A stretch of 34,889 bases of DNA from a virus, in the IMG/VR virus record IMGVR_UViG_3300022602_004010, positions 1 through 34,889 of that record. One strand, given 5' to 3'. The notes below the pieces were generated by a model, which had not been told where the DNA came from, ran no database searches, and saw only the letters and a list, made by a program, of their open reading frames with translations. A program made the translations under genes and the position numbers. Of the stretch, positions 1 through 18,866 are shown piece after piece. The stretch's first letter is position 1, and the number at the start of each line of letters is the position of its first letter.

Positions 1-281
1 AAGTAGTTGCCCAAATGTTCGCCAATCTGTGCGTAAACGTCATCGGTGGCACCACCTTTTTTGTTTAACTCAATGACTTCGTTTTTCTTTTCAACTAGTT
101 GTCTGCGTTGTTCGGCTGTGGCGGGTTTGTCTTTGTGTTGAGCGTTGAATTGTTCGTCAAGGTCTTTGAGTACCCCTTTGATGTCTCCGGCGGCACCCTT
201 GATGTCTTTGTATAATTTACAACCTGCTTTAACTGCGGCAACTGCGCCATTGGCAAGGGCAAATAGAGAAATCGGATCCAC
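1..281 (-). CDS. virion-like protein, N-terminal part (runs off left edge)
   Basis: Open frame of 93 codons that starts with GTG at 281 and leaves the window at base 1. It begins VDPISLFALANGAVAAVKAG, a hydrophobic/Ala-rich opening that I associate with structural proteins of marine T4-like phages, followed by a charged, Lys/Glu-rich stretch likely to be helical. A purine-rich run (AGGGGG) sits 9 bases before the GTG, and a tandem late-promoter-like motif lies at 296-310. No enzymatic motif is visible. Role (tail or baseplate component) is inference from the N-terminal pattern and promoter type. Confidence 0.6.
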   Translation of the reverse strand, partial: MDPISLFALANGAVAAVKAGCKLYKDIKGAAGDIKGVLKDLDEQFNAQHKDKPATAEQRRQLVEKKNEVIELNKKGGATDDVYAQIGEHLGNY

Positions 282-337: not shown

Positions 338-1339
338 CTAGAACTGAATAAAATGCTTTTCTTGCAAATTTGTATACAATGGTTTCATGTGAGTAGAAAA
401 AACCAACGCATCACGAAATCGTTGATTTTTTGCTCCATTGGCGTCCCACCAACGACTATCTGCAGTTTGTAGTACAAGATTTATCAATTTTAATAGTATA
501 TTTTTACTTTGAGTGTATTGGGTATTCCTGCGATGCCAAAATTTATCAGTAAAACCACTAGTTTGCTCAACTGAATCTAGATTATCAGTCCACATCATTT
601 TAAGACTAGATATTTCTAACCCAATATTCCTTAATTCATAATCGATGTTGATTTTTTTATTGGAGGTATGATTTTTCAAATCGTCAAACAATCCCACAAT
701 ACATCCAAGATAGTTGGTGATGAATCCGTAGTCGGTCCAACTTGATATCTGAGAGAAGCGGCTGTTGGTATCAAAATAGTGCCTTTTGCCCAATATGTAC
801 CCGTCGGGTACTTGGTAGTTATCTACTATCAAGGAACCGGCTCTGGCAATTTCCATACCTATCAAATTTGGGAAAGAAAGATCGATTGGATGATCTCCCG
901 AAGTAAAATCAAACAACACATAGGCTTCTTCTGCTGAATTATTTACAGTAGTACCAGTTGGGATAGTGAATATTCCATAATCGCCTTGATATAAATTTGA
1001 AATCCAATACTTTTTTCCCGAAACCAGATTTCCTTTCAAGGACAAGCTGTCGGACATTTTTTTATTAGACCAACATCCGATTTGTTTTTCGTACTCAGAC
1101 TGATAAAACAACGGTGGTGTAGTATCAGCAAATGAAATAGACATACACAATCTTGCTCCGTGATTGTGTTGTACACAATGAGCAATTCCCAGGCTGTGTG
1201 TTGCCAAGGTTAGCAAATTATTAAACCATAAAGTTTTTTGATTGGACCTGTGATCAATATCAAAATACGGTTTTAGTATCTTTAAGGTTTCTTTATTGAA
1301 GTCATTGCATTCTACGGTGTCTAAGGGTATTATTGTCAT
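338..1339 (-). CDS. acyl-CoA dehydrogenase-like flavoprotein (paralogue A)
   Basis: 333 residues. The order of motifs follows the acyl-CoA dehydrogenase/DszC-HpaB superfamily: an N-terminal helical part with HCVQHNHGAR, a middle beta domain (GKKYWISNLYQGDYGIF, about 108-124), then GMEIARAGSLIVDNYQVPDG matching the family's G-M-x-G-S-x...F-x-x-V-x-V-P turn, and a C-terminal helical domain ending QRFRDALVFSTHMKPLY, like the 'RDA...H' end of type-2 members. It is shorter than the usual 380-400 residues, mostly at the N-terminus, and the catalytic Glu of true dehydrogenases is not recognisable, so a flavin monooxygenase or non-catalytic partner is possible. Last gene of the 7067-338 operon; its ATG overlaps the end of paralogue B (ATGA). 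Confidence 0.7.
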   Translation of the reverse strand: MTIIPLDTVECNDFNKETLKILKPYFDIDHRSNQKTLWFNNLLTLATHSLGIAHCVQHNHGARLCMSISFADTTPPLFYQSEYEKQIGCWSNKKMSDSLSLKGNLVSGKKYWISNLYQGDYGIFTIPTGTTVNNSAEEAYVLFDFTSGDHPIDLSFPNLIGMEIARAGSLIVDNYQVPDGYILGKRHYFDTNSRFSQISSWTDYGFITNYLGCIVGLFDDLKNHTSNKKINIDYELRNIGLEISSLKMMWTDNLDSVEQTSGFTDKFWHRRNTQYTQSKNILLKLINLVLQTADSRWWDANGAKNQRFRDALVFSTHMKPLYTNLQEKHFIQF

Positions 1340-2337
1340 TTTAACTCTAAAAAATTATACAATTGAGAAAATCTATAAAGAGGATACATATGGGACGAAT
1401 ATGTCAAGGCGTCTCTAAATCGTTGACTGTAGTCACCTTCTTTATTTGCCCAATAACTTACTCCTACTTCTATTATCATTTGTATAATACTGATCAATGT
1501 TTTTTTACTGAATGAATATTGTGTGTTTCTGCGATGCCAGAATTCGTTTGTGGAATCGCGCTGTTTCAATGATATCAGATTGTCTTCCCATTGCATTTGC
1601 ATAGTACATACATCTGTTTCTAATTTTTTTATGTCAAATTCTGCGCCACAATCAAATTTATCAGTGTATGCTTTTAGATCCAAAAATAATTGTCTTGTGA
1701 CTCCGAGATGATTGGTAAGAAAGCAATAGCTATGGAAATTATTTTTTAAAAAGAACTGCGGAGAAGTATTTAATCCCAGTATTTGATCGGGCTTGATTTC
1801 TATATTTTTAAAAATTATGCTGCCCGGTATAGCTAATTCCATACCCAGTGGAGTAAAATTCGCAAAAGTTATTTCGTGTTCGCTCTTTGTAAGATCAACA
1901 TAAACAGATTTACTGACCTTGTTCTCGTCTAATATTTGTAGATTCACATACGAGGAATTGTGTATGTTGGTGATCCACTTTTTCATGCCATTTAATTTGT
2001 TATCAATCAATGTACACTCGTCGGCTCGTTTAATGCCAGTCCATCCTCCTGTAATCTCGTTATATTTTTTACTGAATACATTTTCTTTGGCTTCAATTGA
2101 ATCACCAAAATATACCATTAGTCTGCTGACCAAGTCGTGATGAATACAGTGTGCCAATCCCATACTGGTCCTAGCAATTAGCAATTGATTTTCAAAAAAT
2201 TGTTTAGTCTCATCATAGTCGGCCTCTGCGTAATTGATATCAACATAGGGAGCCAAGGTGGTTTTTGTATCAAGATCAAATCTTTCTTTTTTCATGCAAG
2301 GTATTAATATGTCAGAAGATTCAAGTTTTTTAATCAT
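1336..2337 (-). CDS. acyl-CoA dehydrogenase-like flavoprotein (paralogue B)
   Basis: 333 residues, the same length as the downstream neighbour and clearly paralogous: both carry FWHRRNTQY, then SK, and both end QRFRDAL..S.HM.PLY. The middle domain shows GMKKWITNIHNSSYVNL and the turn PLGMELAIPGSIIFKNIEI. Members of this superfamily bind FAD or FMN and oxidise acyl thioesters or hydroxylate small substrates as homo- or heterotetramers; a heteromer of the two paralogues is plausible. The N-terminal helical domain is short. Starts 8 bases after the beta-keto acid cleavage gene, so the pair probably acts on its product or substrate. Very AT-rich: the 60 bases at 1441-1500 are 27% G+C. Confidence 0.7.
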   Translation of the reverse strand: MIKKLESSDILIPCMKKERFDLDTKTTLAPYVDINYAEADYDETKQFFENQLLIARTSMGLAHCIHHDLVSRLMVYFGDSIEAKENVFSKKYNEITGGWTGIKRADECTLIDNKLNGMKKWITNIHNSSYVNLQILDENKVSKSVYVDLTKSEHEITFANFTPLGMELAIPGSIIFKNIEIKPDQILGLNTSPQFFLKNNFHSYCFLTNHLGVTRQLFLDLKAYTDKFDCGAEFDIKKLETDVCTMQMQWEDNLISLKQRDSTNEFWHRRNTQYSFSKKTLISIIQMIIEVGVSYWANKEGDYSQRFRDALTYSSHMYPLYRFSQLYNFLELK

Positions 2338-2345
2338 GGTTTTTC

Positions 2346-3212
2346 CTATTTTGATAATTGTAACAAATTTCTTGCATCAGAACAAGAGGCCACATTATTT
2401 CCTAGATCTTGTATAATTCTAACAGCCTTGGTAACTAGTTCTGCATTGGATTTGGCCAATATTCCTTTTTCTAGAAAAACATTATCTTCTAAACCCACTC
2501 TTGCATGTCCGCCACTCAACGAAGACCACGCTACAAAAGGCATTTGTTTGTTACCTATTCCAAATGCATACCATGTGGCATTGTTGGGTAACAGTTGTCG
2601 GGCATATTCCAATGTGGTTGTTGTTGAATCCCATCCCCATTTGATTCCGGTGGCAATTTGCCAAAGTGGATTTCCCACAATCAAGCCGTCTGCTATTAAC
2701 GATTTGGCAATGTGTAGATCGCCGCTGTCAAAAATTTCTAATTCGGGTTTGACCCCGGCTTGTTTGATAAGACGGGCCATTTCTCGTACTACCGGAATAG
2801 AATTTACTGTAATATTGTTTGTACCTCTATTCATGGTATTAAAATCCAAGCTACAAAGGTCGGGTAGTAATTCCATGACATGTGCCACACGTTCTTCTGC
2901 GGATTTAAATGCGGAATCAATTTGACCAAATACTGCTGTAGATGCACCAGTTGATCCGGGTCCGGTGGTTAAATTAATAATTAAATTAGAATTTTTGTCT
3001 CGTATACGGCCTACAACTTGTTTGTACAGTTCGATGTCCATGCTGGGTGCGCCGGTTGCAGGATCTCTAACATGAAGGTGCACCACTGCTGCACCAGCTT
3101 CGGCAGCCTCTAATGCACTGTTAGCAATCTGTTCAGGAGTAACTGGCAAATATGGTGTGTGCTTTAGTGTTGTTCCTGACCCAGTCACTGCACAAGTTAT
3201 AATGGTTTTCAT
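2346..3212 (-). CDS. beta-keto acid cleavage enzyme (BKACE/DUF849, Kce-like)
   Basis: 288 residues from ATG at 3212, which overlaps the stop of the reductase (ATGA); a longer in-frame start lacks homology. TIM-barrel family that condenses a beta-keto acid with acetyl-CoA, yielding acetoacetate and a new acyl-CoA (Kce of lysine fermentation is the prototype). Diagnostic features: opening TCAVTGSGTT and TPYLPVTPEQIA, the metal-binding HLHVRD (His45, His47), and the C-terminal GGHARVGLEDN and LAKSNAELV blocks. All are intact, so activity is likely. Its position between a reductase that could make or use a beta-keto group and two acyl-CoA dehydrogenase-like genes suggests one pathway. Substrate cannot be read from sequence. 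Confidence 0.9.
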   Translation of the reverse strand: MKTIITCAVTGSGTTLKHTPYLPVTPEQIANSALEAAEAGAAVVHLHVRDPATGAPSMDIELYKQVVGRIRDKNSNLIINLTTGPGSTGASTAVFGQIDSAFKSAEERVAHVMELLPDLCSLDFNTMNRGTNNITVNSIPVVREMARLIKQAGVKPELEIFDSGDLHIAKSLIADGLIVGNPLWQIATGIKWGWDSTTTTLEYARQLLPNNATWYAFGIGNKQMPFVAWSSLSGGHARVGLEDNVFLEKGILAKSNAELVTKAVRIIQDLGNNVASCSDARNLLQLSK

Positions 3213-3961
3213 AGTATTCGTCCCCCATCTACCACAAAACAATTGCCAGTGACAAATCTCATTTTGGTGGCGCAAGCCTCAACCACCGATGCAATGTCTT
3301 GGGGTATGGCAATTCGTTTAAGTGGAGTGGTATCTGCCGCCCGTTGATAAAATTCTGCAGTTTGATCTAAAAATCCCGTGTTCATCGAACTAGGACAAAT
3401 TGACACCACACGTACCTGTGGTGCCAATGACAATGCTAAATTTTTGGTCAAAGATTCTAGTCCGGCCTTGGCAGCAGTATAGGCCATATTGCTGCCGTGC
3501 CCAGGACGCAGCGCAGAGGCCGAGCTGATATTAACAATTAGTGCATTGGAACTTTGTTTTAACAAAGGCAACAAAGTTTTAATAGTCGAAAATACTGATC
3601 GCAGATTGACGGTCAACATTGTATCAAAAAAATCATCGGTTAGATCATCTAGATTTTTATGAGCAATAGTTTTAGAAAAACCGGCTGTGTTGACCAACAG
3701 ATCGCATTGTGTTAGATGTTCGACTGCCTGTTTAAATTCTTGTGTTTTTGTATTGTCTGCCAGTATAACTTGATGATTCAAATGACCATTTTCAAATTGA
3801 TCAAATTTCTTTTGCAATTCATCAGCATTGCGTCTAACAATGCCAATCACTTGTGCGCCCGAGATAGCAAGTTTTTGTGCAGTGGCAAATCCAATACCGC
3901 CTGCGGCACCTACAACTACAGCCACTTGTCCTTTTAAATTATCCAATGGTTCAAAACTCAT
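3209..3961 (-). CDS. short-chain dehydrogenase/reductase, FabG-like
   Basis: 250 residues, classical SDR length. Rossmann glycine motif GAAGGIG (18-24), NTAG at 91-94, structural Asn119, Ser146/147, catalytic YTAAK (Tyr161, Lys165) and a C-terminal ITGxxxxVDGG-type end (TGNCFVVDGG). Arg43-Arg44 after beta-2 suggest NADPH preference. Expected reaction: reversible reduction of a keto group, most often a 3-oxoacyl thioester or a small hydroxyacid. Overlaps the BKACE start by 4 bases, implying translational coupling and a shared pathway. Base composition (55% G+C at 3481-3540) is well above the flanking operon genes, hinting at a different origin. Confidence 0.93.
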   Translation of the reverse strand: MSFEPLDNLKGQVAVVVGAAGGIGFATAQKLAISGAQVIGIVRRNADELQKKFDQFENGHLNHQVILADNTKTQEFKQAVEHLTQCDLLVNTAGFSKTIAHKNLDDLTDDFFDTMLTVNLRSVFSTIKTLLPLLKQSSNALIVNISSASALRPGHGSNMAYTAAKAGLESLTKNLALSLAPQVRVVSICPSSMNTGFLDQTAEFYQRAADTTPLKRIAIPQDIASVVEACATKMRFVTGNCFVVDGGRIL

Positions 3962-3968
3962 ATTATTC

Positions 3969-5021
3969 CTATTCCAGTGCGTAAGTATTAACGCATCCTT
4001 TGATGCCTTTTGTTAGATCTTTTGTATCATTTATCCAATTTTTTCTCACTCGAGATAAAAATTCTTTTATGCCATTGTGTGCGTACCTTACCGAATCAGT
4101 GGTTTCACGATTTTGATTCCAAAACCAATTGTCTCTTTCGGATAACAATAAGTTTTTGGGCTTGGGGGCAACTATGGTAGTGGTATCCCAGCCCGGGTAA
4201 ATTAAAGTATGATAAATGTCATTTCTTAAATATTGCCCGGTAATTTTGCTTTGCGGAAGATGAGCACCACTAATGGACGAAAACCATGCAGGATTATTTT
4301 GTTCCATTACTTTTAATAATATATGACTTTGTTTGGCCACAATGGCCGCAGTGTCTGGTGCCCAATAAAACCATTCGTCAAAATAACCTTGGTTTGCCAT
4401 GGATTGTAATCTCAAATTGGTTTCAGAAAACACATCAATAAAACAGGTATGCCATTTGCCATTGACTTGTTTGATTCTAGGTTTTTCTGCACCCCAAAGG
4501 AAACACATACGCTTGCCGCTGTCGATTATTTTTTTGTAGTCATCAACATATTCTCGTATATAAGATCTAGCCAGACTATTGGCTGACATTATTCCTTTGA
4601 TGTTGTAGATATAATCAAATTTAACATCGGGTCTAGTGTAAATATTGGCAATAATATTACTAATATCAACTACTCGATGTTTGATATCTGGACGTGTTTC
4701 TAATATTTTTTGTGTTTTTGGAATAGCAGTAAAAAATACTTCTTCGTTGAGCACGCTGTGTTTGTTTTGATCTGCTTCGTAACTGTGGAAATGTGCTATC
4801 TCGTCTACCTTGATTCCGTGTTTGAGAAAAGTATCTAGCATACACCAACCATCGGGACCGCCACCATACCATAATACAATATAATCGTAACTGTCCCTTA
4901 TTTGTTGTGCTCGCTGTCGATATAGTTCGTCCAATGATTCTGTGGGATCTTGGGTCCAATTGAATTTACCGTACTGTTCTCGGTTGAAATGCCACTCTAG
5001 ATGTGTACTAGTGCGCTTCAT
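3969..5021 (-). CDS. degenerate PP-loop (ATP-pyrophosphatase-like) protein
   Basis: 350 residues from the first ATG. IVLWYGGGPDGWCMLD (about 47-63) sits where PP-loop ATP pyrophosphatases have SGGxDS, preceded by a predicted helix (ESLDELYRQRAQQIRDSYD) and followed by an alternating helix/strand pattern. Both serines of the loop are replaced by Gly, so ATP chemistry may be lost or altered. Later sections (FLWGAEKPRI, YWAPDT) resemble uncharacterised marine-phage PP-loop proteins as I remember them. An open, sensible frame continues upstream to 5114 without ATG, GTG or TTG (see next entry), so the real N-terminus is probably longer. Function unknown; in this operon a thiolation, amidation or ligation step is conceivable. 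Confidence 0.75.
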   Translation of the reverse strand: MKRTSTHLEWHFNREQYGKFNWTQDPTESLDELYRQRAQQIRDSYDYIVLWYGGGPDGWCMLDTFLKHGIKVDEIAHFHSYEADQNKHSVLNEEVFFTAIPKTQKILETRPDIKHRVVDISNIIANIYTRPDVKFDYIYNIKGIMSANSLARSYIREYVDDYKKIIDSGKRMCFLWGAEKPRIKQVNGKWHTCFIDVFSETNLRLQSMANQGYFDEWFYWAPDTAAIVAKQSHILLKVMEQNNPAWFSSISGAHLPQSKITGQYLRNDIYHTLIYPGWDTTTIVAPKPKNLLLSERDNWFWNQNRETTDSVRYAHNGIKEFLSRVRKNWINDTKDLTKGIKGCVNTYALE

Positions 5022-5114
5022 TTCCTCAATGGCCGATAATTTACTGTAGGTTTTAAATGTTTTTCCTACAGTGTAATAGCCAAATTGGTCACCTGAATAT
5101 TGTATAATAGAAAT
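5022..5114 (-). other. probable 31-codon N-terminal extension with an ATT start
   Basis: In frame with the PP-loop gene, codons from ATT at 5114 read ISIIQYSGDQFGYYTVGK and continue TFKTYSKLSAIEE into the ATG at 5021. The frame closes at a TAA only five codons earlier, with no standard start in between. AGGA, a good ribosome-binding core, lies at 5124-5121, 6 bases before the ATT, overlapping the stop of the previous gene as operon signals usually do. This fits a rare AUU start (known for infC and pcnB) or, less interestingly, a sequencing error that removed an ATG. Confidence 0.55.
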
Positions 5115-5122
5115 TTTTTGTC

Positions 5123-5734
5123 CTAGTTGGGGTTTTTAATTAATTCTGGATAGTCGTTTAACAACTGATCAAGATCATAAGTTGTTTGAACTTCAGAAAA
5201 TTTAATTGAAAAAAATAATCTAGTAGATTGTATATTCTCCACGCTATGTGCTTGTTTGACATTGAAAGCATACCATCCAACCGGGAAAATTTGCTTGTGT
5301 ACTATGCCTCTATCTCTAGCATCTTTATATAAAAGATTTGTGGATTCTATTTTCTTTACTTCGGCAGAAATATTATAAAGCACTGTTTCTACATTATTTC
5401 CGCCAAGATCAATAAAGTAATTTACGGCCAATGCTCGGCCTCGATCAATGTGTGGCGGTTGGCAAGAAACTGTGTTATCAAGAGATTTCATTATGCTGAC
5501 CCCTGATCTAATTTTATGCTTAGGAAAAAATTTTTGGTATTCTAGTAGAACCTGTTGATCTACTTTTTCATCTGATATGCCAAACAAGTGCAATGAAGAA
5601 TTTATTTCACCGTTGTGAAATTCATCTAACCAGCGTTTGTTGTCTGGATTAATCGGCGCATTTGCTCCTGTTTGTCGTACTAGATCAATCAAATACGGTG
5701 ACGGGGCTGGTAAATTAAGTTCAGCAACAATCAT
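5123..5734 (-). CDS. 2-oxoglutarate/Fe(II) oxygenase-like protein
   Basis: 203 residues from ATG at 5734; an upstream TTG at 5758 would overlap the ligase gene and adds nothing recognisable. The second half has the jelly-roll metal signature: HID in PPHIDRGRALAVNYFIDL, a distal His in KQAHSVENI, and an Arg 8 residues on (STRLFFSIKF) that could hold 2-oxoglutarate. That HxD...H...R arrangement and the spacing fit non-haem Fe(II) oxygenases or a related cupin-like hydroxylase seen in marine phages. The first half is helical and unassigned. Operon position between the acyl ligase and the PP-loop protein suggests hydroxylation of an activated or peptidyl substrate. Substrate unknown. Confidence 0.6.
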   Translation of the reverse strand: MIVAELNLPAPSPYLIDLVRQTGANAPINPDNKRWLDEFHNGEINSSLHLFGISDEKVDQQVLLEYQKFFPKHKIRSGVSIMKSLDNTVSCQPPHIDRGRALAVNYFIDLGGNNVETVLYNISAEVKKIESTNLLYKDARDRGIVHKQIFPVGWYAFNVKQAHSVENIQSTRLFFSIKFSEVQTTYDLDQLLNDYPELIKNPN

Positions 5735-5750
5735 AAAATATTTTTCTTTT

Positions 5751-6833
5751 CTAATCAAATTGAGATTCTAAATAACTTCTAGAGATTTTTCCGGAAGGGG
5801 ATTGTGGTATTGTAGATATATGTTGAACCAATGTTGGGCGACAGTGACTGCCCAATCTTGTTAAAAAGTTTTTGATTAACTCGGGATTGATATCACCAGT
5901 ATAAAGGCATTTTACACGATCTTTTCCAAAGATCACACATTCACCGATTCCATCTATACCAGAAGTCAATTGTTGTTCCAGGCTCATCGGGTTAACTTTA
6001 ATACCTTTAATATTGATTTGATCGATGTGGCGACCAAGTATTTTAAAATATCCTTTTTCATCTTGTTCGGCTAGATCTCCAGTGTCATACCAATCATCAA
6101 CAAAAACTGTCGGTCCCTTGATATATAATTTTTTATCAATAATTTTAGCATCAACCCCGTCGGGTAATCCCACGGTACCTATTCTTTGTTCCCCATTTAA
6201 TGGATTGGTAAAACAATGGCTCAATGCTTCGGTCATACCAAATGCTTCCACAATCGGTACATTAAATTTTTGTTTTAAATGATTATACAACAAGTTCTTC
6301 ATTGGAGCACTACATGATCTAATAAATCTCAAGTTTGCAAATTCAAATTTAGTTACTATTTGTAATATGTCCGGAATAGCTGTAATAAATGTGGGATTTG
6401 TTTTGTATAAGTTTTTTATTTCCTTGAGCGGCAAAAAATTGATCTCGCATTGTGCTTGTTTTGCAGCCCAATAAAATCCCTGCCCATGCGCATGCCATAA
6501 TGGCATAATGCTGGTATATCGATCGTTGCTGCCAATGTTATAACTACTGCAAATTTTTTTTGTTAGAATATCCAATTGAGTTTGAGTAAAACTACAAAAT
6601 TTGCTGTCGCCAGTTGTACCACTGGTATACCAAAATAACTTTTCATTATAATTCCCACCATTACGATATTGTTCGCCATTGTTGGTTATTAACAAACTCC
6701 AATCTGCACGATCCGTTAAATATTTTAGCCTATCTTTTGCGCTGTTGGGGTTTACTACCATTATACTGTGGTTGACCAATTGCGACAAGTAATCCTGTGG
6801 ATTATCAACGCACAGTACCGCTCTTGGATTCAT
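5751..6833 (-). CDS. compact AMP-forming acyl ligase (acyl-CoA synthetase/adenylation family)
   Basis: 360 residues against about 500 for typical members. All core motifs of the ANL superfamily are present: P-loop YTSGTTGDSK (69-78), AFGMTEA (near 200), YDTGDL and GYFKILGR, hinge-region KGIKVNP, and the C-terminal catalytic Lys in PQSPSGK. What is missing is the first part of the N-terminal subdomain. Expected reaction: ATP-dependent adenylation of a carboxylic acid, then transfer to CoA or another acceptor. No acyl-carrier protein is encoded nearby, so CoA or a small molecule is the likelier acceptor. ATG at 6833 lies directly against the stop of the DUF2061 gene. AT-rich (23% G+C at 6541-6600). 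Confidence 0.88.
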   Translation of the reverse strand: MNPRAVLCVDNPQDYLSQLVNHSIMVVNPNSAKDRLKYLTDRADWSLLITNNGEQYRNGGNYNEKLFWYTSGTTGDSKFCSFTQTQLDILTKKICSSYNIGSNDRYTSIMPLWHAHGQGFYWAAKQAQCEINFLPLKEIKNLYKTNPTFITAIPDILQIVTKFEFANLRFIRSCSAPMKNLLYNHLKQKFNVPIVEAFGMTEALSHCFTNPLNGEQRIGTVGLPDGVDAKIIDKKLYIKGPTVFVDDWYDTGDLAEQDEKGYFKILGRHIDQINIKGIKVNPMSLEQQLTSGIDGIGECVIFGKDRVKCLYTGDINPELIKNFLTRLGSHCRPTLVQHISTIPQSPSGKISRSYLESQFD

Positions 6834-7067
6834 TCACTCGGTCTCCATTACTTTTCTACCGTAATCACTGGAATTCCATGCACGTTCATGAAAAAAATAA
6901 ATTATACTATTAACCACTAGTGCAAATGTTACCACTCCAAGGCCAACCCAGGGATTGCCAGAACTGAGCCAACCACCAAAAAAGTTTGTAATAGTTACTA
7001 AAACACGCCATGTGATCACTTTTGCAAGCGAACGAGGAATATGTTCTTGGATTTTTGTTTTAAACAT
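6834..7067 (-). CDS. DUF2061 small membrane protein
   Basis: 77 residues. RSLAKVITWRVLVTITNFFGG near the N-terminus and IIYFFHERAWN near the C-terminus are the two ends of the DUF2061 signature (typically RSxxKAxTWRxxxT ... YxxHERxW). Two hydrophobic helices (about 19-36 and 41-60) predict an inner-membrane hairpin. Function of the family is unknown; it is often found near sulfur or small-molecule metabolism genes in bacteria. First gene of the operon running to 338, immediately abutting the acyl ligase, so it may tether or serve the pathway at the membrane. Confidence 0.85.
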   Translation of the reverse strand: MFKTKIQEHIPRSLAKVITWRVLVTITNFFGGWLSSGNPWVGLGVVTFALVVNSIIYFFHERAWNSSDYGRKVMETE

Positions 7068-7151
7068 AGTATTATCCTTAATAAACTACACAAGAAAAAT
7101 CATAATAACTAAATGATAATATGATTCTTGATAGCAAATTGATTTTTTTCT

Positions 7152-7170
7152 TTTTCATATTATATGAAAA
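7152..7170. promoter_or_regulatory. perfect 9+1+9 inverted repeat before the metabolic operon
   Basis: TTTTCATAT and ATATGAAAA flank a single central base, in the 140-base AT-rich gap between the DexA-like gene and the DUF2061 gene. The size and symmetry fit a dimeric repressor/activator operator; an AT-only hairpin is the other reading. No protein partner is identifiable. Confidence 0.4.
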
Positions 7171-7204
7171 TTTAATTAATTGTGTATCACGGCGTTGCTG
7201 AATT

Positions 7205-7212
7205 TATTTATG
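7205..7212 (-). promoter_or_regulatory. late-promoter-like octamer before the metabolic operon
   Basis: CATAAATA on the minus strand, overlapping the stop of the DexA-like gene and 138 bases before the DUF2061 start. Identical to the octamer at 17241-17248. The long leader makes it less certain than the other sites. Confidence 0.35.
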
Positions 7213-7744
7213 TTCTTACTTTTTTAATATTTAAATTTTTATAGATTTGTTGTACTGCTTGTGCCTGACTTACGCAGTCTTCTAGGGCATTGTGCAGGCC
7301 TGCCTTGTTGCGTTCTCGCGGATCACCGTGTACTCCAAACAAGGTACGCGAATCACGTATTTGATAATAGTTCCAGGGCGCTGGCCAACCCCATTGATAG
7401 TAGATGTTTTCCAACATCACAATATCAAACACCGGACCCTGTGCCCAGATGTTGTTTGCTCCAACTAAAAATCTATTCAGTTCGCGATACATGGTTTCCA
7501 CGCTGACACGATCGGTTTCGCCTAATGCTTCTTCACGCACATCTTCGGCCTGTCGCAACCACCACTCCAAGGTATCTTCTTGTACATCGCGACCACGTGC
7601 AGTTTGTTCATCTACATCGATGCGTAGATATAAACCGGGCCCGGGATCGGCTGAGGAGTAAGGATCAAACTTGACTGCACCCAGGGTCAGTATAACTGCA
7701 TTGGGCCTAGTGCTCAACGTCTCCAAGTCAAGCATCACGTCCAT
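7208..7744 (-). CDS. DexA-like 3'-5' exonuclease (DEDDh)
   Basis: 178 residues. DEDDh exonuclease core: Asp5 and Glu7 in DLETLST at the N-terminus, a third Asp in WAQGPVFDIVMLE (mid-protein), and HNALEDC near residue 150 carrying the His and last Asp. The TLEWWLRQ block and overall length match the T4 DexA / Rv2179c-like subgroup rather than RNase T or polymerase proofreading domains. Expected job: trimming single-stranded DNA or RNA ends during phage replication and host-genome recycling. Last gene of the clpS-cytidylyltransferase-exonuclease set, one base after the cytidylyltransferase stop. Confidence 0.87.
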   Translation of the reverse strand: MDVMLDLETLSTRPNAVILTLGAVKFDPYSSADPGPGLYLRIDVDEQTARGRDVQEDTLEWWLRQAEDVREEALGETDRVSVETMYRELNRFLVGANNIWAQGPVFDIVMLENIYYQWGWPAPWNYYQIRDSRTLFGVHGDPRERNKAGLHNALEDCVSQAQAVQQIYKNLNIKKVRT

Positions 7745-10684: not shown

Positions 10685-12850
10685 TTAACTGACAGCTCTG
10701 ATTACTGCAAAGTTTATAATCAAAGTGTCATTATGTCCAACACCAGAATTGTTATAAACATTAATAACAAAACTGCCCGTCGCTACTGCGCCTACAGTTA
10801 CCAAATATGTACCAGCAGTTACAGGAGTCTGTAAATTCACAATGACTACATCATTTGAATTAACATAGCTATTGTTAACTGTAAACGCACTAATAGCACC
10901 TCCAGCAATAGTGCCAGATGCCATTGTAATTTGTCCGGTTACTCCATTGGCTGTTACTGCGGTCGTTTTGTTGGTTGATTGAGTTACACTGCCAGCAGTA
11001 TTGGTCAATATTAAGTTAGCACCGATGCTGACATTACCCGTAACAGTAATAGTGCCGCCAACTGTTTCGTTGTTAGTAATCGCTACATTTCCGGCAGAAA
11101 CATTACCACTTAGTGTTGCTGTTGTACCAACGATGTTACCGTAATAAGTTGTTGCAATAACATTACCGCCTGTGACGTTGCCTGTGGTAACAAAGCCAAT
11201 TGGACTTGTTACACCATATGCAGGATCAATTGTGGCAGTTAGAATTTGATTGCTTGTTACAGTACCATTGGCAGTAGTATGGAATGCAATATAGCCGCCC
11301 TGTGCCGTAGAACTTATGTTATCCCCGGCAGTAAAGGTTATACGTGCCGGACCAATTGTGGGCCAACCGCCGGTACCATAAGGAGTACCGGCCCAACGCA
11401 CAATGTCTTGACCGGCAAGTACCTGTGTGGGGTTGGCTATAGTGCCGTTGAAACGACGTCCGGCAATGACTGTGTAATTGTTCACACTGTCAGAATAGAG
11501 TCTACCACTGACGTTGCCAGTGTCGGGTCCAGTTGTGTGCAACATGACACCTGAATTTTGCGGCGGTTGGCTCAAACCCAGGGCATTACCAGTGATTTCT
11601 ACTGCACCTTGATTGCTACTGTTCATTGTAACAATAAACGTTGCAGGGCCAGTTTGGAATGTGTTACCAGTAAGATATGCATTACCAGTTACTGTGGTTG
11701 GCCCAATTACAAAACTGTTACCAGTCAAATAAGTATTGCCAGTGATAGTAGTCACTTGTCCAGTAACATACGTATTACCCGATACTGTGGTTGTACCTGT
11801 AACGAATGTGTTACCAACCACGTATGTATTACCTGTCACCTGAGTTATACCAGTAACAAACGTATTACCAGTAACATAACTGTTACCACTTAGATAAGTT
11901 AGTCCAACTACCTGTGTGTTTCCGGTTACCACGGTATTTCCGGCCACAGTGGTTGTTCCTGTGACTAATGTATTACCTGTTACTGTGGTATTACCAATGA
12001 GTGCCGCATTACCAGCAATGGTTAGATTACCGTTGAATACACTAAGTCCATTATTAATGGTAGTACCAGTAATGTTCAAATTGCCCACTTGGTTGGTATT
12101 ACCGGTAATTGTAAGTATACCTGTAGTAATCACATTGCCGTTTTGATACGTTGTTCCGTTAAATGTGCTGCTTCCGTTGAACGTGCTTGTACCAGTATTT
12201 GTACTATTTCCTGTAATTGTTATATTACCACTCTGCGTAGTATTACCAGTAATATTCAAGTTACCGACTTCGGTAACGGTTCCAACGAAATAACTTTGTC
12301 CGTTAACAATCAAGTTTCCGTTTGCGACAACATTGCCTATGTGATTGGTTGGCCCAACAAAGTAAACTGATCCAAGCAAATAAGTGCCACCGTTAGTGAT
12401 CAAGTTGCCGTTGACCGTGAGGTTACCAGCATTGTCCACAGAAAATACCGGAGCGGTATATAATCCAGCTGTGGTAGTTTGAACACGCAAGTTGCCAATA
12501 AGGTTGACGTTACCGGTGCCGTTGGTTATGAGATTTAGATCTTGATTGGCATTGGTAGTACTGATATTGGCACGAACAATGCTTAAATTGCCAATGCTTA
12601 AAGGCAAGCCGGTGGTGTCAATTGTGAGTGTTCCATCTACCGATACATTGGCGCCAGGTCCGGCTTTGATTCCGCCCACCAGGGTTGATGTGGCAGGTAG
12701 TACACTGACATAGTGTCCGCCAGCGGTTACACCGTCACTGATTTTTAGTAGACCAACTGCCTCATCATAAAACATGTCACCGTATTGGCCAACATAGATG
12801 TTGCCAGTAGTGGTGTTTACTCTACTTGCACGAAACTTGCGTATAGACAT
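10685..12850 (-). CDS. beta-solenoid tail-fibre-like protein
   Basis: 721 residues. N-terminal domain (about 1-50) contains NIYVGQYGDMFYDEAVGLLKI, a pattern shared with structural proteins of marine phages that have a small 'given-grid' N-terminal repeat. Residues about 130-410 are a long run of roughly six-residue repeats (GNTxVT, GNSYVT, GTTTVS) predicting a stacked beta-solenoid shaft. The C-terminal 250 residues are less regular and end in a beta-rich tip (NSYVNSNDVVIVNLQTP ... NFAVIRAVS) that could bind a receptor. Probably a trimeric fibre or spike. Last gene of the unit transcribed from the late-type promoter at 13564-13571. Confidence 0.82.
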   Translation of the reverse strand: MSIRKFRASRVNTTTGNIYVGQYGDMFYDEAVGLLKISDGVTAGGHYVSVLPATSTLVGGIKAGPGANVSVDGTLTIDTTGLPLSIGNLSIVRANISTTNANQDLNLITNGTGNVNLIGNLRVQTTTAGLYTAPVFSVDNAGNLTVNGNLITNGGTYLLGSVYFVGPTNHIGNVVANGNLIVNGQSYFVGTVTEVGNLNITGNTTQSGNITITGNSTNTGTSTFNGSSTFNGTTYQNGNVITTGILTITGNTNQVGNLNITGTTINNGLSVFNGNLTIAGNAALIGNTTVTGNTLVTGTTTVAGNTVVTGNTQVVGLTYLSGNSYVTGNTFVTGITQVTGNTYVVGNTFVTGTTTVSGNTYVTGQVTTITGNTYLTGNSFVIGPTTVTGNAYLTGNTFQTGPATFIVTMNSSNQGAVEITGNALGLSQPPQNSGVMLHTTGPDTGNVSGRLYSDSVNNYTVIAGRRFNGTIANPTQVLAGQDIVRWAGTPYGTGGWPTIGPARITFTAGDNISSTAQGGYIAFHTTANGTVTSNQILTATIDPAYGVTSPIGFVTTGNVTGGNVIATTYYGNIVGTTATLSGNVSAGNVAITNNETVGGTITVTGNVSIGANLILTNTAGSVTQSTNKTTAVTANGVTGQITMASGTIAGGAISAFTVNNSYVNSNDVVIVNLQTPVTAGTYLVTVGAVATGSFVINVYNNSGVGHNDTLIINFAVIRAVS
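11640..12260 (-). repeat. in-gene array of about 18-base repeats coding GNT-x-V-T hexads
   Basis: Degenerate repeats such as GGTAATACxTxTGTTACT recur every 18 bases (or multiples) through the shaft of the fibre gene. They are in frame and vary at wobble positions, so selection is on the solenoid protein, though they may also promote in-frame recombination and length variation. Confidence 0.75.
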
Positions 12851-12857
12851 CTAAGGT

Positions 12858-13208
12858 TTATCCCTCAAATGGTTCGTCTTCGTCGGCAATATGAGCAAGT
12901 AGTGCAGGCATCTGGCTCATCATGGGCATGCCGGCATTGCGTTTGATGATTTCCAGCTCGTCTTCGGGAGCATCGTGTTCGTCGTCGCACTCGCAAGGGT
13001 TGCAACCACAGTCGTTACAACTGTCTTCTTCACCAGCTATTTTCTTTAACAGATCTAATTTTTGTTGTAGTGGTGGCACCATGGGGGTGACATTGATCTC
13101 TACCGGTTCGTTGGTCTGCGCCTGTGCAGTCACTGGATGCTCATTTTCAGAGCCGCTTTGTCGATCAATAACGTCAGCCAGTTTGCGTAATATTTCTGCC
13201 ATGTTCAT
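12858..13208 (-). CDS. small acidic protein with a Cys cluster
   Basis: 116 residues. Predicted N-terminal helix (AEILRKLADVIDRQ), a Pro/Thr-rich middle, a second helix (LQQKLDLLKKIAG), then a compact cluster CNDCGCNPCEC (about 65-75), followed by an acidic region and a hydrophobic helix (PMMSQMPALLAHIA). Five Cys in eleven residues suggest a metal site or disulphide knot. Conserved small proteins of this look sit among structural genes in marine myoviruses; function unknown. Lies between two virion genes, 7 bases before the fibre gene. Confidence 0.75.
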   Translation of the reverse strand: MNMAEILRKLADVIDRQSGSENEHPVTAQAQTNEPVEINVTPMVPPLQQKLDLLKKIAGEEDSCNDCGCNPCECDDEHDAPEDELEIIKRNAGMPMMSQMPALLAHIADEDEPFEG

Positions 13209-13219
13209 AATTTTGTTCC

Positions 13220-13540
13220 TTAACCGTTAGTGTATGTGTTACCAGATCCGCCACCAGCAACCGCAGTTGCAGTGCCTGATGGTGCTACGTTTCCGACCTG
13301 TGTCACTGACATGGCAGCAGTACCCGAAGTGGGCAACAGACTCAAGGTATTTCCAACACCCTGCATGTTGATTGCACTTCTTACTCCGGCTGGTATAATA
13401 GTTGTCACGTTACTTGACAATGAAGCGGGTCCGTTTATGTTTGCGTAGCAGGCAACATTGGCCACAACAATAACCTTGGTACTGTTAATTGGTGGGGTTG
13501 TAATTGTAGTTGCTGATACGTATGTGTATGAATATGCCAT
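13220..13540 (-). CDS. small Ser/Thr/Gly-rich virion-like protein
   Basis: 106 residues with alternating hydrophobic and small residues (VSATTITTPPINSTKVIVVA, TTIIPAGVRSAINM), predicting a beta-sandwich, and a Gly-rich end. No family recognised. First gene after the late-type promoter at 13564-13571 and AGGA before ATG 13540; cotranscribed with the Cys-cluster protein and the beta-solenoid fibre, which supports a decoration or fibre-associated role. Confidence 0.7.
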   Translation of the reverse strand: MAYSYTYVSATTITTPPINSTKVIVVANVACYANINGPASLSSNVTTIIPAGVRSAINMQGVGNTLSLLPTSGTAAMSVTQVGNVAPSGTATAVAGGGSGNTYTNG

Positions 13541-13563
13541 TTTTTATTCCTAGATATTGCTGT

Positions 13564-13571
13564 TATTTATC
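13564..13571 (-). promoter_or_regulatory. late-promoter-like octamer (GATAAATA)
   Basis: Minus-strand GATAAATA located 24 bases before ATG 13540, between the sedolisin gene stop and the small virion-like protein. Same spacing as at 29552, 20392 and 34671. Confidence 0.55.
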
Positions 13572-13573
13572 GT

Positions 13574-14911
13574 TTAGTACGTTTGATTCCACCCATTTAT
13601 GGTCTTGGTCCAAATGGCTTTTACATTTGACCACGTATTTGACGCGGTTTTGACTTTTACGTTGGATACATAGTGCCAACTTCCGTCTGTGCTTTTAACT
13701 TTTGTACCGCCTGATGTAATCATTGGATAGAGCACATTACCCCATGGTGCTCCTAATCCTGTAACTGCATCCCATCCAGATGTTGCAGCGTATCCAGTTA
13801 AATTGTAATCGTCATTATTGCCACTGGTAATATCATAAAACCCACTGGCATTTGAGTACAATATGGAATGTATCGATGATGTGTTGTTGCCAACTATCGG
13901 TCTTCTTCCGCCATTTAATGATATAACTCTAGCTATTAGTCCTGCTAATATAGGGGTAGAGGCACTGGTGCCATAAACTCCAGTAACTATATTACCACCA
14001 AACCAAAAATCATAACTTTGGAACGGTGCCGAAATATCTGGCACACCACGCCCTATTAAATTTCCACCAATATTTCCTAACGTTCCGGTGGTTAAAGTAA
14101 CTGTTGGGCCGTTTGTTATGCCATTAAAAGTATTATATGTTCTACCATTTTGCCAAGCAGGTACAGAAAAAAGTGTGCTTATACCACCGCCCGATGCATA
14201 TGGTGCAACTTCAGATGATCTTATGTTAGCAGATGTTAAATTTAATATAGTTCCGCCTACTGCAATTACGTTTGGACTCGTTGCAGGATATGCTGCCGAA
14301 TCAGGACCATAGAGTCCAAGATTTTGATTCCCTTCAGATCCGTAGTCTCCGCTAGCTGCTAAAACCGTAATTCCTTTTGCGGCAGCATTTGCCAATGGAG
14401 TTTCCAAGAAAGGACCAAGACCATAGTATTCATCAATGGCGTAACTTATTGAAATAACATCGCAGTTTTCTGCAACCATTCGATTTATGATATTAGTCCA
14501 GTTTGAAACTATTCCAGATTGTGTAGATGCGTTGTTACCAACAAATATAACAATATTAGCAGATGGAACAATACTGGCAACACAATATAAGTCTAGTGTG
14601 TTTTCTAAGCTGTCGTTTGCAGGATTGTTTATATTTCCATCAAAGGTCCCGCCGCCATCAATTGATATAGTAGTGATAGTAGGCGGAGATGCTATACCCA
14701 AATTAGATAAAGATGCAACTAAATCACTGTATATAAATCCATTGCCTCCACTAAAAATACCAACTTTAACATTAGCACCATTACTTGTGGGAAAATTATA
14801 TGCAGTGGCAACTTGAAGAGTGGTGATATTCCCGCTGATACCCACAATGTTACTAAATGAAGCAGTTACATTTCCGATACTCGAAATGCAAGAATAATTA
14901 TTTGCTTGCAT
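13574..14911 (-). CDS. sedolisin-type (S53) serine peptidase with virion-like C-terminal tail
   Basis: 445 residues from ATG 14911, two bases after the preceding stop; an earlier TTG at 14932 lies inside the previous gene. The catalytic core follows sedolisin/kumamolisin: QVATAYNFP opening, Glu103 and Asp107 (ENTLD), Asp189 in SGDYGSEG, VIAVGGT, SGGGIST..PAWQ, Ser316 in GTSASTP, and a Ca2+-site end (FYDITSG ... SGWDAVTGLG). Spacing Glu103-Asp189 is 86, as in kumamolisin. The usual prodomain is absent. The last 50 residues form W-x-x-V-K repeats (GSWHYVSNVKV, NTWSNVKAIWTK) like ends of phage adhesion proteins. Probably a virion-borne protease that degrades host surface protein or matures fibres. 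Phage sedolisins are unfamiliar to me. Confidence 0.88.
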   Translation of the reverse strand: MQANNYSCISSIGNVTASFSNIVGISGNITTLQVATAYNFPTSNGANVKVGIFSGGNGFIYSDLVASLSNLGIASPPTITTISIDGGGTFDGNINNPANDSLENTLDLYCVASIVPSANIVIFVGNNASTQSGIVSNWTNIINRMVAENCDVISISYAIDEYYGLGPFLETPLANAAAKGITVLAASGDYGSEGNQNLGLYGPDSAAYPATSPNVIAVGGTILNLTSANIRSSEVAPYASGGGISTLFSVPAWQNGRTYNTFNGITNGPTVTLTTGTLGNIGGNLIGRGVPDISAPFQSYDFWFGGNIVTGVYGTSASTPILAGLIARVISLNGGRRPIVGNNTSSIHSILYSNASGFYDITSGNNDDYNLTGYAATSGWDAVTGLGAPWGNVLYPMITSGGTKVKSTDGSWHYVSNVKVKTASNTWSNVKAIWTKTINGWNQTY

Positions 14912-14913
14912 AT

Positions 14914-17223
14914 TTAGAAAGTCTGATACCAAATATCGCCAACGCTACCTTGGCTGTTTGTTGGTGCAACATTTGCAACCCAAGTATATCTTGCTACATT
15001 AGACACCATTGCAATGTTGCCATTTGCAATTAGATTAGTGGTGGCAATAACATTTGCACCACTTACGTTTGCAGTAGCAGATACTCCACCAATCATGGAA
15101 ATTAACGATTGTGTAAATGTTGCAGTTTGTACTCCACCAATTTGGAACACACCGTTACCACCAGAAGTAGCAAATGCCAGTGAACTGGATCCGTTGTAGA
15201 CCGACGAAGTTGTGGTCGAAAAATGCGAGTTTGCATAAGTTTCAAATGCGCCAACATTGGCACTGAGTGTGGCAACCACTGTGTTGGCTGCAGTAATTTG
15301 ATTGCCTAGGGTTACACCGGTTGTGTACAGTCCGGCAGCGTTGGATTGCCAAGCAGTGGTTATACTGTAAATTATACTTGCACCATTTGAATACAAATAA
15401 TTGTTGGTGAATATGTTGCCTACTGTAATATTTCCTGCAGTATAAACTGATCCTACAGTAACACTTCCTGACATAGATACATTACTGGTATTAGAGCCAA
15501 TAGTGATAGTATTAGCAGTATTAAATATTGTGGCCGATGTTGATGTTGTTCTTAATCTACCACCAGTGACATAGATATTTCCACCAACTACAGTATTTCC
15601 AGTGTTGTTGATATTTCCTACGACTGTTAGGGTGGTCACATTGGCTGTCACAATATTGGCAAATGTGACGTTGGCATTGCCAACAGTGATGTTACCACCC
15701 AGGTATGCGACTAGATTTACATTCGAATATATACTATTCTGGAATCCGCTCACAAGATAATTTGCGGCATTGATATTGGCATTGAGGCCGGCTATTGATA
15801 CTGCCAAGGCAGCCTCGTTGGCATTGTTGGTCAAGATGTCATTGTACAATACCGCAGTATTTGCTTGCCAAGCAGTGGTCACTGCGGCAATGGCTGTGTT
15901 GGCAGCCTTGACATTGGCATTGGTACTGGCAATCGCAGCATTGGCTGCGGGAATTACACTGTTTTCAATGTAGTTGATTGCACTGTTGATATTGCTGGCA
16001 GTATTGCCCAAATTGGCATAAATTGCCAATACGTTGGCACTGAGCGCAGCGGACAAATTAGAAACAGTGTTTGAATTGGTAGAAATTTTTGCGTTGGCAG
16101 CCGCAACATTGGCTGCCGACAGTGTCAAGTTTGCTGTAAATTCGTTATTCAAGACCGATACGCTGGTAATTGTGGCGCTCATTTCAGTTGTCAATGTGGT
16201 CAAATTACTGTTGATACTGGTAACATTGGAACTCAATGCCGAAGACAAATTTGCAACATTGCTGTTTACTAGAGCAACACTGGCAACTGTGGTTGCAACT
16301 GTGGCCGAAATATTGCTGACATTGCTGTTAATACCAGGAATAAGAGTATTGACAATTGTGGTAATATTGTTCAGTGCACCGTTTAGATTACTGTCGTTGT
16401 TTAATATGTTTGCAGTATTGGCCTGTATTGGTGCAATCAATGCGTTCACATAACTGACCACTGCTGAATTAGCAGTGACAATGGCAGCATTGGCCGCGGT
16501 GATGTTGGCACGCAAACTGCTGATTTCAGTTTCTTGAACGGCTGCGTTGGCAGTGACCGATGCAATTTGACTGTTAACATAACTGACAACACCGGTATTG
16601 GCAGTGACAATGGCAGCATTGGCCGCGGTGATATAATTGGCCAGCGTTACTTCGTTGGCGTTGTTGGTTTGTATGTCTGCATACAGCGTTGCAGCATTGG
16701 CTTGCCAGGCTGCGGATACTGCGGTTATTTGTGTAGATTGTGTTGCGGCATTGGCAAACAACACATTGATATTGTTCAATGCGCCATTAAGCGCAGCATT
16801 GGCAGTAAAACTGTTGGCCACTAGAGCGCTCAATGATCCGGTTACCGATTCGACATAGTTTACCACCGCGGTGTTGGCGGTAACAATTGCGGCATTTGCG
16901 GCCGCGACATTGGCTTGAATTGCGGTTATGGTTGAATTTGTGGGAAGATAATACCCTACATTGGCATTGCTGTAGGTGTATTGACTAAAGATTGAGTTAA
17001 CGTAACCGGTGCTGGCTGCTCCGGTTACATCGTTAACTGAAAGAAGAATATTACCAGTTCGATTGGCAACTGTTAAAACTGGTGCATTCAGTGTGATTGT
17101 GACATTGCCGTTTGCAATATTGGCAAAGTTGTCATCAATTATTTCAAATGCGTTGCGTAATGGTGTGCCTGTGCCATCATTGGCAGAATTACCTGTGAAT
17201 ACGTAAGAAATAAAACCCATCAT
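14914..17223 (-). CDS. long Ala/Asn-rich fibre-like structural protein
   Basis: 769 residues. N-terminus YVFTGNSANDGTGTPLRNAF and EIIDDNFANI is a widespread opening of fibre or baseplate-attached proteins in marine myoviruses. Residues about 90-560 are low-complexity helical repeats: AANAAIVTANTAVV occurs three times with variants, and AAWQANAATLY-like blocks alternate with it, predicting a trimeric coiled coil or helical shaft. The C-terminal part turns beta-rich and ends QGSVGDIWYQTF, another virion-protein hallmark. ATG at 17223 (or 17220). Expressed from a CATAAATA late-type promoter 18 bases upstream, with the sedolisin gene following at once. Confidence 0.82.
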   Translation of the reverse strand: MMGFISYVFTGNSANDGTGTPLRNAFEIIDDNFANIANGNVTITLNAPVLTVANRTGNILLSVNDVTGAASTGYVNSIFSQYTYSNANVGYYLPTNSTITAIQANVAAANAAIVTANTAVVNYVESVTGSLSALVANSFTANAALNGALNNINVLFANAATQSTQITAVSAAWQANAATLYADIQTNNANEVTLANYITAANAAIVTANTGVVSYVNSQIASVTANAAVQETEISSLRANITAANAAIVTANSAVVSYVNALIAPIQANTANILNNDSNLNGALNNITTIVNTLIPGINSNVSNISATVATTVASVALVNSNVANLSSALSSNVTSINSNLTTLTTEMSATITSVSVLNNEFTANLTLSAANVAAANAKISTNSNTVSNLSAALSANVLAIYANLGNTASNINSAINYIENSVIPAANAAIASTNANVKAANTAIAAVTTAWQANTAVLYNDILTNNANEAALAVSIAGLNANINAANYLVSGFQNSIYSNVNLVAYLGGNITVGNANVTFANIVTANVTTLTVVGNINNTGNTVVGGNIYVTGGRLRTTSTSATIFNTANTITIGSNTSNVSMSGSVTVGSVYTAGNITVGNIFTNNYLYSNGASIIYSITTAWQSNAAGLYTTGVTLGNQITAANTVVATLSANVGAFETYANSHFSTTTSSVYNGSSSLAFATSGGNGVFQIGGVQTATFTQSLISMIGGVSATANVSGANVIATTNLIANGNIAMVSNVARYTWVANVAPTNSQGSVGDIWYQTF
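16472..16503 (-). repeat. 32-base direct repeat, copy 1
   Basis: Exact 32-base match to 16601-16632, 129 bases (43 codons) apart in the same frame, inside the fibre-like gene. It encodes the core of the AANAAIVTAN repeat. Confidence 0.85.
16601..16632 (-). repeat. 32-base direct repeat, copy 2
   Basis: Second exact copy of the repeat at 16472-16503. Identity at the DNA level, including wobble positions, indicates recent duplication or gene conversion within the shaft. Confidence 0.85.
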
Positions 17224-18435: not shown

Positions 18436-18866
18436 CTGTAGATCCATCCCAGATTTTCCAGTCGATGAATCCAGGTAAAAATTGGAGTATCAAAGTACAG
18501 TTCCCATCGACCGTTCCAGCCCATGTAAGTTGCGCTGGCGTGAAATTCGGGCAAATGGTCCTGCTGGCTGGCCCAGGGTTCGGGATAAACCGGATAGTAT
18601 CTACTGCTCCATTTGAACCGGTCCAGTCGCATGCCTTCAAATTCCACGTATTCGATTTCCAGTGCTGTTTCGGGCAAGTCATTGGTTTTGTTGTAAAAAT
18701 CCAAAAATACCGTGTGTGCACCAGCAGACAAATCCAAATCAAAATTCAGTGCCATGGGCTGTGACACGATCAATTCGGTGTTGACAGTTGCGGCATCAAC
18801 ACCATAATTGATTTTGGGCACACCGTGTGGAATCAGCCCAATACTAAATCTGGTACTGTATTGCAT
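18432..18866 (-). CDS. beta-sandwich protein, possibly carbohydrate-binding-like
   Basis: 144 residues. The stretch LNFDLDLSAGAHTVFLDFYN and the following ETALEIEYVEFEGM alternate as in Ca-dependent carbohydrate-binding modules (beta-sandwich with exposed acidic loop). The C-terminal half is rich in Trp and Tyr (WSSRYYPVYPEPW, WELYFDTPIFTW). No catalytic motif. Its ATG lies inside the end of the radical SAM gene, an overlap of 23 bases, so the two are probably translated together and may form an enzyme-substrate or enzyme-partner pair. Assignment as carbohydrate binder is tentative. Confidence 0.7.
   Translation of the reverse strand: MQYSTRFSIGLIPHGVPKINYGVDAATVNTELIVSQPMALNFDLDLSAGAHTVFLDFYNKTNDLPETALEIEYVEFEGMRLDRFKWSSRYYPVYPEPWASQQDHLPEFHASATYMGWNGRWELYFDTPIFTWIHRLENLGWIYS

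Follow-up and report, generated by a model that had tools for sequence, protein, structure and literature searches.

The 34,889-base stretch of viral DNA analysed here (IMG/VR record IMGVR_UViG_3300022602_004010, hereafter the window) has all its assigned genes on the minus strand and carries, at positions 338-7067, an eight-gene operon whose products are predicted to process small acids. The operon is genuine and is carried by a phage, and its genes very probably have a joint function. In the order of transcription it encodes a DUF2061 small membrane protein, a compact ANL ligase, a 2-oxoglutarate (2OG)/Fe(II)-oxygenase-like protein (OX), a PP-loop-like protein, a short-chain dehydrogenase/reductase (SDR), a beta-keto acid cleavage enzyme (BKACE) and two flavoproteins with the acyl-CoA dehydrogenase (ACAD) fold, A2 and A1 (Table 1). 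An acid-processing pathway in a phage had been proposed in the preliminary description of this DNA, and the predicted families together with their recurrence in other phages support the proposal. Of the two directions of the chemistry offered there, salvage and building, we lean to building. This is a tentative choice: judged by the protein families, the biosynthetic direction is put somewhat short of an even chance.

In the favoured reading, SDR and BKACE would interconvert beta-hydroxy or beta-keto acids and acyl thioesters during the infection. The compact ANL ligase would adenylate a short acid, the ACAD-fold flavoproteins and OX would oxidise such an acid, and the PP-loop protein would use ATP, either for the introduction of nitrogen or sulphur or for the coupling of parts. 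A small acyl or amide group would result, which would decorate surface glycans of the phage or host, or virion proteins, or be released as a small molecule. The lean to building is based on the recurring oxygenases and ATP-dependent ligases. Metabolic genes of phages are mostly known singly and as supporting host pathways; a conserved set of a ligase, a C-C bond enzyme, flavoproteins, an oxygenase and an ATP-dependent partner would mean that these phages do chemistry of their own. They would either feed on dissolved acids or make a decoration possibly relevant to host defence or adsorption. Heterologous expression would address the question directly, the genes being small and few in number.

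All eight minus-strand genes with overlaps or short gaps that had been listed earlier were present. The intergenic distances were 0-101 bases, and two junctions, A1/A2 and BKACE/SDR, overlapped by 4 bases; the gaps were 8 bases for A2-BKACE, 7 for SDR-PP-loop, 101 for PP-loop-OX, 16 for OX-ANL and 0 for ANL-DUF2061. The TTG starts first assigned to BKACE (3275) and OX (5758) were replaced by the ATG starts given in Table 1. The identity to phage relatives was 60-78% for most of the operon genes and 43-46% for A2. The nonsynonymous divergence (dN) was 0.14-0.50, well below the synonymous divergence (dS), which was saturated. Since dN is well below dS, the phage copies have been kept by selection, and with the 60-78% identities this places the arrangement beyond chance. 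Neutral passengers without a joint function would agree with a composition that differs between phages and with an ANL gene that often occurs alone. However, the overlapping genes, the intact frames, the low dN and the repeated co-occurrence in diverged contigs make such an explanation very improbable.

An assembly chimera, in which a bacterial catabolic operon has been joined to a phage contig, would fit the presence of SDR-BKACE homologues in Burkholderiales. It was rejected, its probability being close to nil, because phage genes flank the module at both ends, the closest relatives are phage sequences (78% identity vs at most 56% for bacterial ones) and the module also occurs in a 124 kb relative (G001) with portal, head protease, baseplate wedge and SbcC/SbcD-like genes. 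In addition, a search of 300 Burkholderiales genomes, run without a positive control, yielded neither the phage PP-loop family nor close relatives of the ANL. The same gene order in a bacterial chromosome, named earlier as the sign of a chimera, was detected only for the SDR-BKACE sub-block, often with TctC and in Burkholderiales, but in the window the module is flanked by phage genes. The left flank protein has a homologue in the phage contig G009 (Table 1), and the exonuclease-adenylyltransferase-ClpS-Hsp20 run of the window is syntenic in G009 from 61125. Between these two flanks G009 carries different cargo, with its own module copy elsewhere; therefore, the module fills a variable slot. 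Taken with the predicted gene content of G001, the flank synteny identifies the module as movable cargo of a T4-like phage lineage. The source of the phage is probably freshwater, as freshwater bacteria are among the nearest BKACE carriers. The module resembles phage auxiliary metabolic genes in that metabolic genes of bacterial descent lie in a variable slot amid phage core genes and are shared between phages; it differs in being a multi-gene module that includes BKACE.

The adjacent SDR-BKACE pair was found in 13 other viral contigs, all uncultured (L003 and L005-L016; L004 is a near copy of L005), and SDR adjoins BKACE in every BKACE-bearing phage relative. Within about 10 kb of the pair, 10 of the 13 contigs had an ANL gene, 9 a PP-loop gene and 10 a DctP-like gene. 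ANL without BKACE is common in phages (71 loci fetched), and there PP-loop or DctP genes are almost never nearby. Fisher's test of PP-loop/DctP genes with BKACE against ANL-only loci resulted in about 1e-9, an order of magnitude given that the denominators were entered by hand and some near-duplicates kept. The refutation proposed earlier, no co-occurrence in any other phage, is thus contradicted. Gene calls in the relatives were mechanical, and some neighbour labels (acyltransferase-like, glycosyltransferase-like, SGNH-like) were read from the sequence without a profile match. Iron oxygenases lie near the core in the window (OX), L012 (an OX homologue), L014 (Rieske), L015 (Asp_Arg_Hydrox), L016 (2OG) and, by motif, L007. 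ATP-grasp, desaturase and several PP-loop genes also occur in module loci, a combination more suggestive of tailoring than of simple catabolism. No signal peptide was detected in the DctP-like protein in any of the 12 examined, and because of this absence it is not a plain uptake protein. A PP-loop gene was near the DctP-like gene in 67 of the 80 sampled loci, mostly among tail genes. As the contig is incomplete, the presence of a DctP-like gene to the left of the window is possible.

Among cultured phages, no match was obtained for the PP-loop protein and BKACE. The ANL matches there had 23-28% identity and resembled bacterial ligases, and the DctP matches reached about 24% at most. The literature searched on BKACE, on TctC and tripartite ATP-independent periplasmic (TRAP) proteins and on biosynthetic gene clusters in phages contained no matching module. 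The statement that no phage module with this gene set has been described therefore agrees with both searches.

Trees were built from 94 BKACEs and from the SDRs paired with 35 of these; in both, a well supported branch (100/100 and 99/97, respectively) separated the phage sequences from the rest. The bacterial BKACE rows were the best 80 matches of one scan, and the phage rows had been found through similarity to the window. The sister group of the phage BKACEs is mostly Burkholderiales. Because the phage sequences of either protein group together beside the Burkholderiales pairs, a single acquisition of SDR-BKACE, followed by its spread among phages, is probable. SDR lies directly upstream at 21 of the 80 bacterial BKACE loci, and TctC is frequent. 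In a Limnohabitans metagenome-assembled genome, the pair stands among an intradiol dioxygenase, a PEP-mutase-family lyase, a zinc dehydrogenase, TctC and a FAD monooxygenase, a catabolic setting. The SDR-BKACE(-TctC) operons of Variovorax and Limnohabitans thus share the pair with the phages, their BKACE clade stands beside the phage clade, and L003 has TctC downstream as well. In contrast to the aromatic-ring dioxygenase and flavin monooxygenase of the Limnohabitans operon, the phages carry ligases and other oxygenases.

These bacterial operons favour a salvage function, by which the phage would boost the uptake and breakdown of organic acids. The ligase or the host would make the acyl form, SDR would oxidise a beta-hydroxy acid, and BKACE with acetyl-CoA would split the beta-keto acid; the resulting acetoacetate and shorter acyl-CoA would feed the energy and precursor supply. 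This explanation, with its steps and outcome, is held to be possible at roughly one chance in three. It agrees with the SDR-BKACE-TctC order retained in L003 as in bacteria, with a signal-peptide-like start of TctC in L003, L008, L015 and L016, and with the presence in L007 of genes for a major facilitator superfamily (MFS) transporter and an aldehyde dehydrogenase close to the pair. The SDR-BKACE pair of Pseudomonas simiae has genetic support for deoxyribonate breakdown (PMC6365646). It is likewise adjacent and in the same order, with the acid converted to a beta-keto acid and passed to BKACE; in the window, by contrast, lactonase and MFS partners are missing, and ANL, PP-loop, ACAD-fold and 2OG proteins are additional. 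Deoxyribonolactonase and a sugar-acid transporter were not found in the window, and among the relatives MFS occurs only in L007. A search among 369 class-mates identified no deoxyribonate operon that includes a lactonase, the flanks of those matches not having been worked through. Against salvage, the DctP-like protein lacks a signal peptide, and the PP-loop, ACAD-fold, oxygenase, ATP-grasp and desaturase partners are not needed for it. In L007, at 11240-16098 beside SDR-BKACE, a 2OG-oxygenase-like gene accompanies the transporter and dehydrogenase genes, and the dehydrogenase is close to L-piperidine-6-carboxylate dehydrogenase (610 bits, cut-off 730).

The residues of BKACE bear on both directions. 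The preliminary description had considered its active-site motifs intact. This was confirmed for the zinc ligands H46, H48 and E243, which are invariant in 14/14 phage and 80/80 bacterial rows and match the zinc ligands His46, His48 and Glu230 of Kce, and for the RxGxEDN motif of the window protein. It does not hold for two other positions. The position of the catalytic Tyr (Tyr145 of CcaKce, Tyr173 of PdKce) is Phe in the window and in all phage rows, and the equivalent of Arg226, a CoA contact in BsfD, is Asn in the window BKACE. Due to these deviating residues, acetoacetate and acyl-CoA are not a sure outcome of the reaction, contrary to the earlier wording. Phe was considered as a sign of phage-specific chemistry and rejected: it occurs in all 79 readable bacterial rows of the same branch and is therefore a trait of that BKACE branch. 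The CoA-contact Arg is lost in 9 of the 14 phage BKACEs, the window's included, vs R/K in 79 of the 80 bacterial ones, a comparison uncorrected for relatedness; it counts against salvage and hints at an altered use of CoA by the phage enzymes. The closest solved relative of the window BKACE is BsfD (PDB 9ZSC, E 1e-80), a biosynthetic protein of the flavophos cluster which acetylates and does not cleave; its authors credit this partly to Phe replacing the catalytic Tyr (PMC12871164). The window BKACE shares that Phe, which by analogy fits biosynthesis; unlike BsfD, with its Arg226 and phosphonate-binding insertion, it has no Arg.

The SDR and the ligase have the intact active-site motifs described earlier: a glycine-rich nucleotide motif and YxxxK in the SDR, TSGTTG..K and A10 in the ligase. 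No acidic residue follows beta-2 of the SDR, and its cofactor is therefore probably NADP(H); reductases that use NADPH often lack an acidic residue there. A clean switch of this residue between phages and bacteria was rejected, as many bacterial SDRs likewise lack it. The P-loop Lys of the ligase is present in 71/71 phage homologues and A10 is canonical (K[IV][SD]R) in 63/71, the window reading PSGKISR. The ligase is shortened at the N-terminal end, with 360 aa vs about 500 for full-length enzymes, and its profile match to solved ligases starts at 66 vs 172. Full-length ANL occurs in L008-L012, L014 and L015, and DUF2061 adjoins ANL in L003, L017 and others. Elsewhere in phages the compact ANL lies near short DegT aminotransferase, acyltransferase-like, epimerase and glycosyltransferase-like genes. 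The compact 360-aa family is widespread in phage contigs (L019-L089), often alone or beside an SGNH-hydrolase-like gene (DUF6071).

The other operon proteins were assigned by motif and fold. Pfam gave no match for A1 or OX and none above the cut-off for A2 or the PP-loop protein. OX has the H95-x-D97...H163...R172 signature of the 2OG/Fe(II) iron triad and 2OG Arg, which is kept in a 46% relative (L187) and in L012, in agreement with the earlier assignment as a 2OG-Fe-like oxygenase; no Pfam or NCBIfam family profile matched. The ACAD-like assignment was borne out at the level of the fold, for A2 by its model and for A1 by homology. The AlphaFold (AF2) model of A2 had a mean predicted local distance difference test score (pLDDT) of 84.0 and a predicted template-modelling score (pTM) of 0.86, and Foldseek matched it to the acyl-CoA dehydrogenase 7w0j (E 3.6e-12, TM 0.74). 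The profile match of A1/A2 to acyl-CoA dehydrogenases was weak, 6e-4 at best. A1 is a diverged paralogue of A2 (33% identity) that keeps the GxKxW beta-domain motif. The fold and GxKxW are common to the superfamily, whereas A1/A2 have 333 aa and only 11-16% identity to solved members. His63, His67 and His316 are invariant in the family alignment; the dehydrogenase Glu was not located, no residue-level structural alignment being available. Because of this, and as the fold matches of A2 also include dibenzothiophene monooxygenases and the nitrososynthase DnmZ, the modelled chemistry may be that of a dehydrogenase or an oxygenase. The SGGxDS motif of PP-loop proteins is present as SGGADS in L002, L005, L013, L014 and L016, but it is atypical in the window, where, as in L003, GGGPDG stands in its place. 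The activity of the window protein is uncertain for this reason. Relatives with 65-77% identity occur in L002, L003, L005 and L013. Its model was mediocre (pLDDT 65.6) and the best Foldseek match, a LarE-type sulphur transferase, was borderline (E 1e-3, probability 0.98).

The predicted ACAD-fold proteins, the probable NADP(H) of the SDR, the neighbours of the compact ANL elsewhere and the signal-less DctP-like protein with its PP-loop partner fit a biosynthetic function. Several points weigh against it. The nearest bacterial SDR-BKACE pairs are in catabolic operons, and several relatives encode, close to the module, a secreted TctC binding protein or an MFS transporter, which points to uptake. 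The Phe does not indicate a reaction peculiar to phages, since all 79 readable bacterial relatives share it. An acyltransferase and a glycosyltransferase were not found in the module of the window, and all of the chemistry is read from protein families. As noted earlier, there is no carrier protein in the module. A more specific version of the building hypothesis, a novel small acyl or amide decoration made with BKACE in the building direction, and PP-loop/signal-less DctP as a general phage tailoring unit that also acts beside radical-SAM enzymes and cysteine-repeat proteins of tail loci in other large phages, is speculative and rather unlikely.

A pathway similar to that of carnitine or gamma-butyrobetaine was also considered, in which the 2OG oxygenase would produce a hydroxy acid, SDR would oxidise it and BKACE would cleave the keto acid, with ANL and ACAD resembling CaiC and CaiA. 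On paper the set fits at the family level, from general knowledge, and L007 contributes the MFS transporter and aldehyde dehydrogenase. However, no protein reached a specific carnitine-pathway model, the pathway offers no role for the PP-loop and DctP-like partners, and the substrate-contacting Glu of BKACE is common to other BKACEs and non-diagnostic. Only a slim chance is given to this pathway.

Table 1. Coordinates of the operon genes, the putative control region and the flanking genes in the window.
Feature	Position	Strand	Evidence
A1, ACAD-fold flavoprotein	338..1339	-	alignment with A2 and phage relatives; GxKxW motif
A2, ACAD-fold flavoprotein	1336..2337	-	AlphaFold model and Foldseek; profile match to ACAD chains
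BKACE (DUF849) family enzyme	2346..3212	-	PF05853 1.6e-91; ATG start at 3212, 288 aa
SDR dehydrogenase/reductase	3209..3961	-	PF13561 3.4e-44; YxxxK
PP-loop-like ATP-using protein	3969..5021	-	65-77% relatives; borderline LarE Foldseek match
OX, 2OG/Fe(II)-oxygenase-like	5123..5734	-	HxD...H...R motif; ATG start at 5734, 203 aa
Compact ANL adenylate-forming ligase, 360 aa	5751..6833	-	PF00501 5e-24
DUF2061 small membrane protein, first gene of the operon	6834..7067	-	PF09834 4.9e-13
Possible promoter TACACA-16-TATAAT and inverted repeat	7152..7186	-	consensus matches alone
Phage flank protein	1..281	-	59% homologue in G009 (55194-55979)
Phage flank, 3'-5' exonuclease	7208..7744	-	phrog_255 1.1e-44

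A 9+9 inverted repeat, TTTTCATAT/ATATGAAAA, is located at 7152-7170 in very AT-rich DNA and overlaps the putative promoter. Promoter-like sites showed no excess over shuffled sequence. Of the operator proposed at the head of the operon, the inverted repeat was therefore found, but its regulatory role is unproven.

Further observations were made in the relatives and in the rest of the window. The module-bearing contig L010 encodes a Bax1-I-family membrane protein (2790-3515) and a ClpP protease (6589-7296). In L190 (6615-12113) and about 45 further loci among L188-L267, from large phages, signal-less DctP-like and PP-loop genes follow a radical SAM gene and a gene for a 104-aa protein in a tail-gene block. 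The radical SAM protein of this type matched a PapB-type ranthipeptide maturase model below the cut-off (E 2e-21), and 18 of the loci also encode a protein of 117-128 aa with NCNCNCACNC-type repeats at its end. The locus resembles a modification cassette of the kind that acts on ribosomally synthesised and post-translationally modified peptides. The window itself encodes three radical SAM proteins (18844-20133, 29564-30580 and 33013-34191), one with a SPASM match, and adjacent, overlapping IscA-like and IscU-like iron-sulphur genes (32313-33003). A subtilase-family peptidase (13574-14932; PF00082 6e-12) lies among tail-fibre-like structural genes. At 24440-28466, a GIY-YIG-type homing-endonuclease-like gene is located between nrdB and nrdA, and the closest cultured relative of the window NrdA, with 60% identity, is that of Xanthomonas phage X1.

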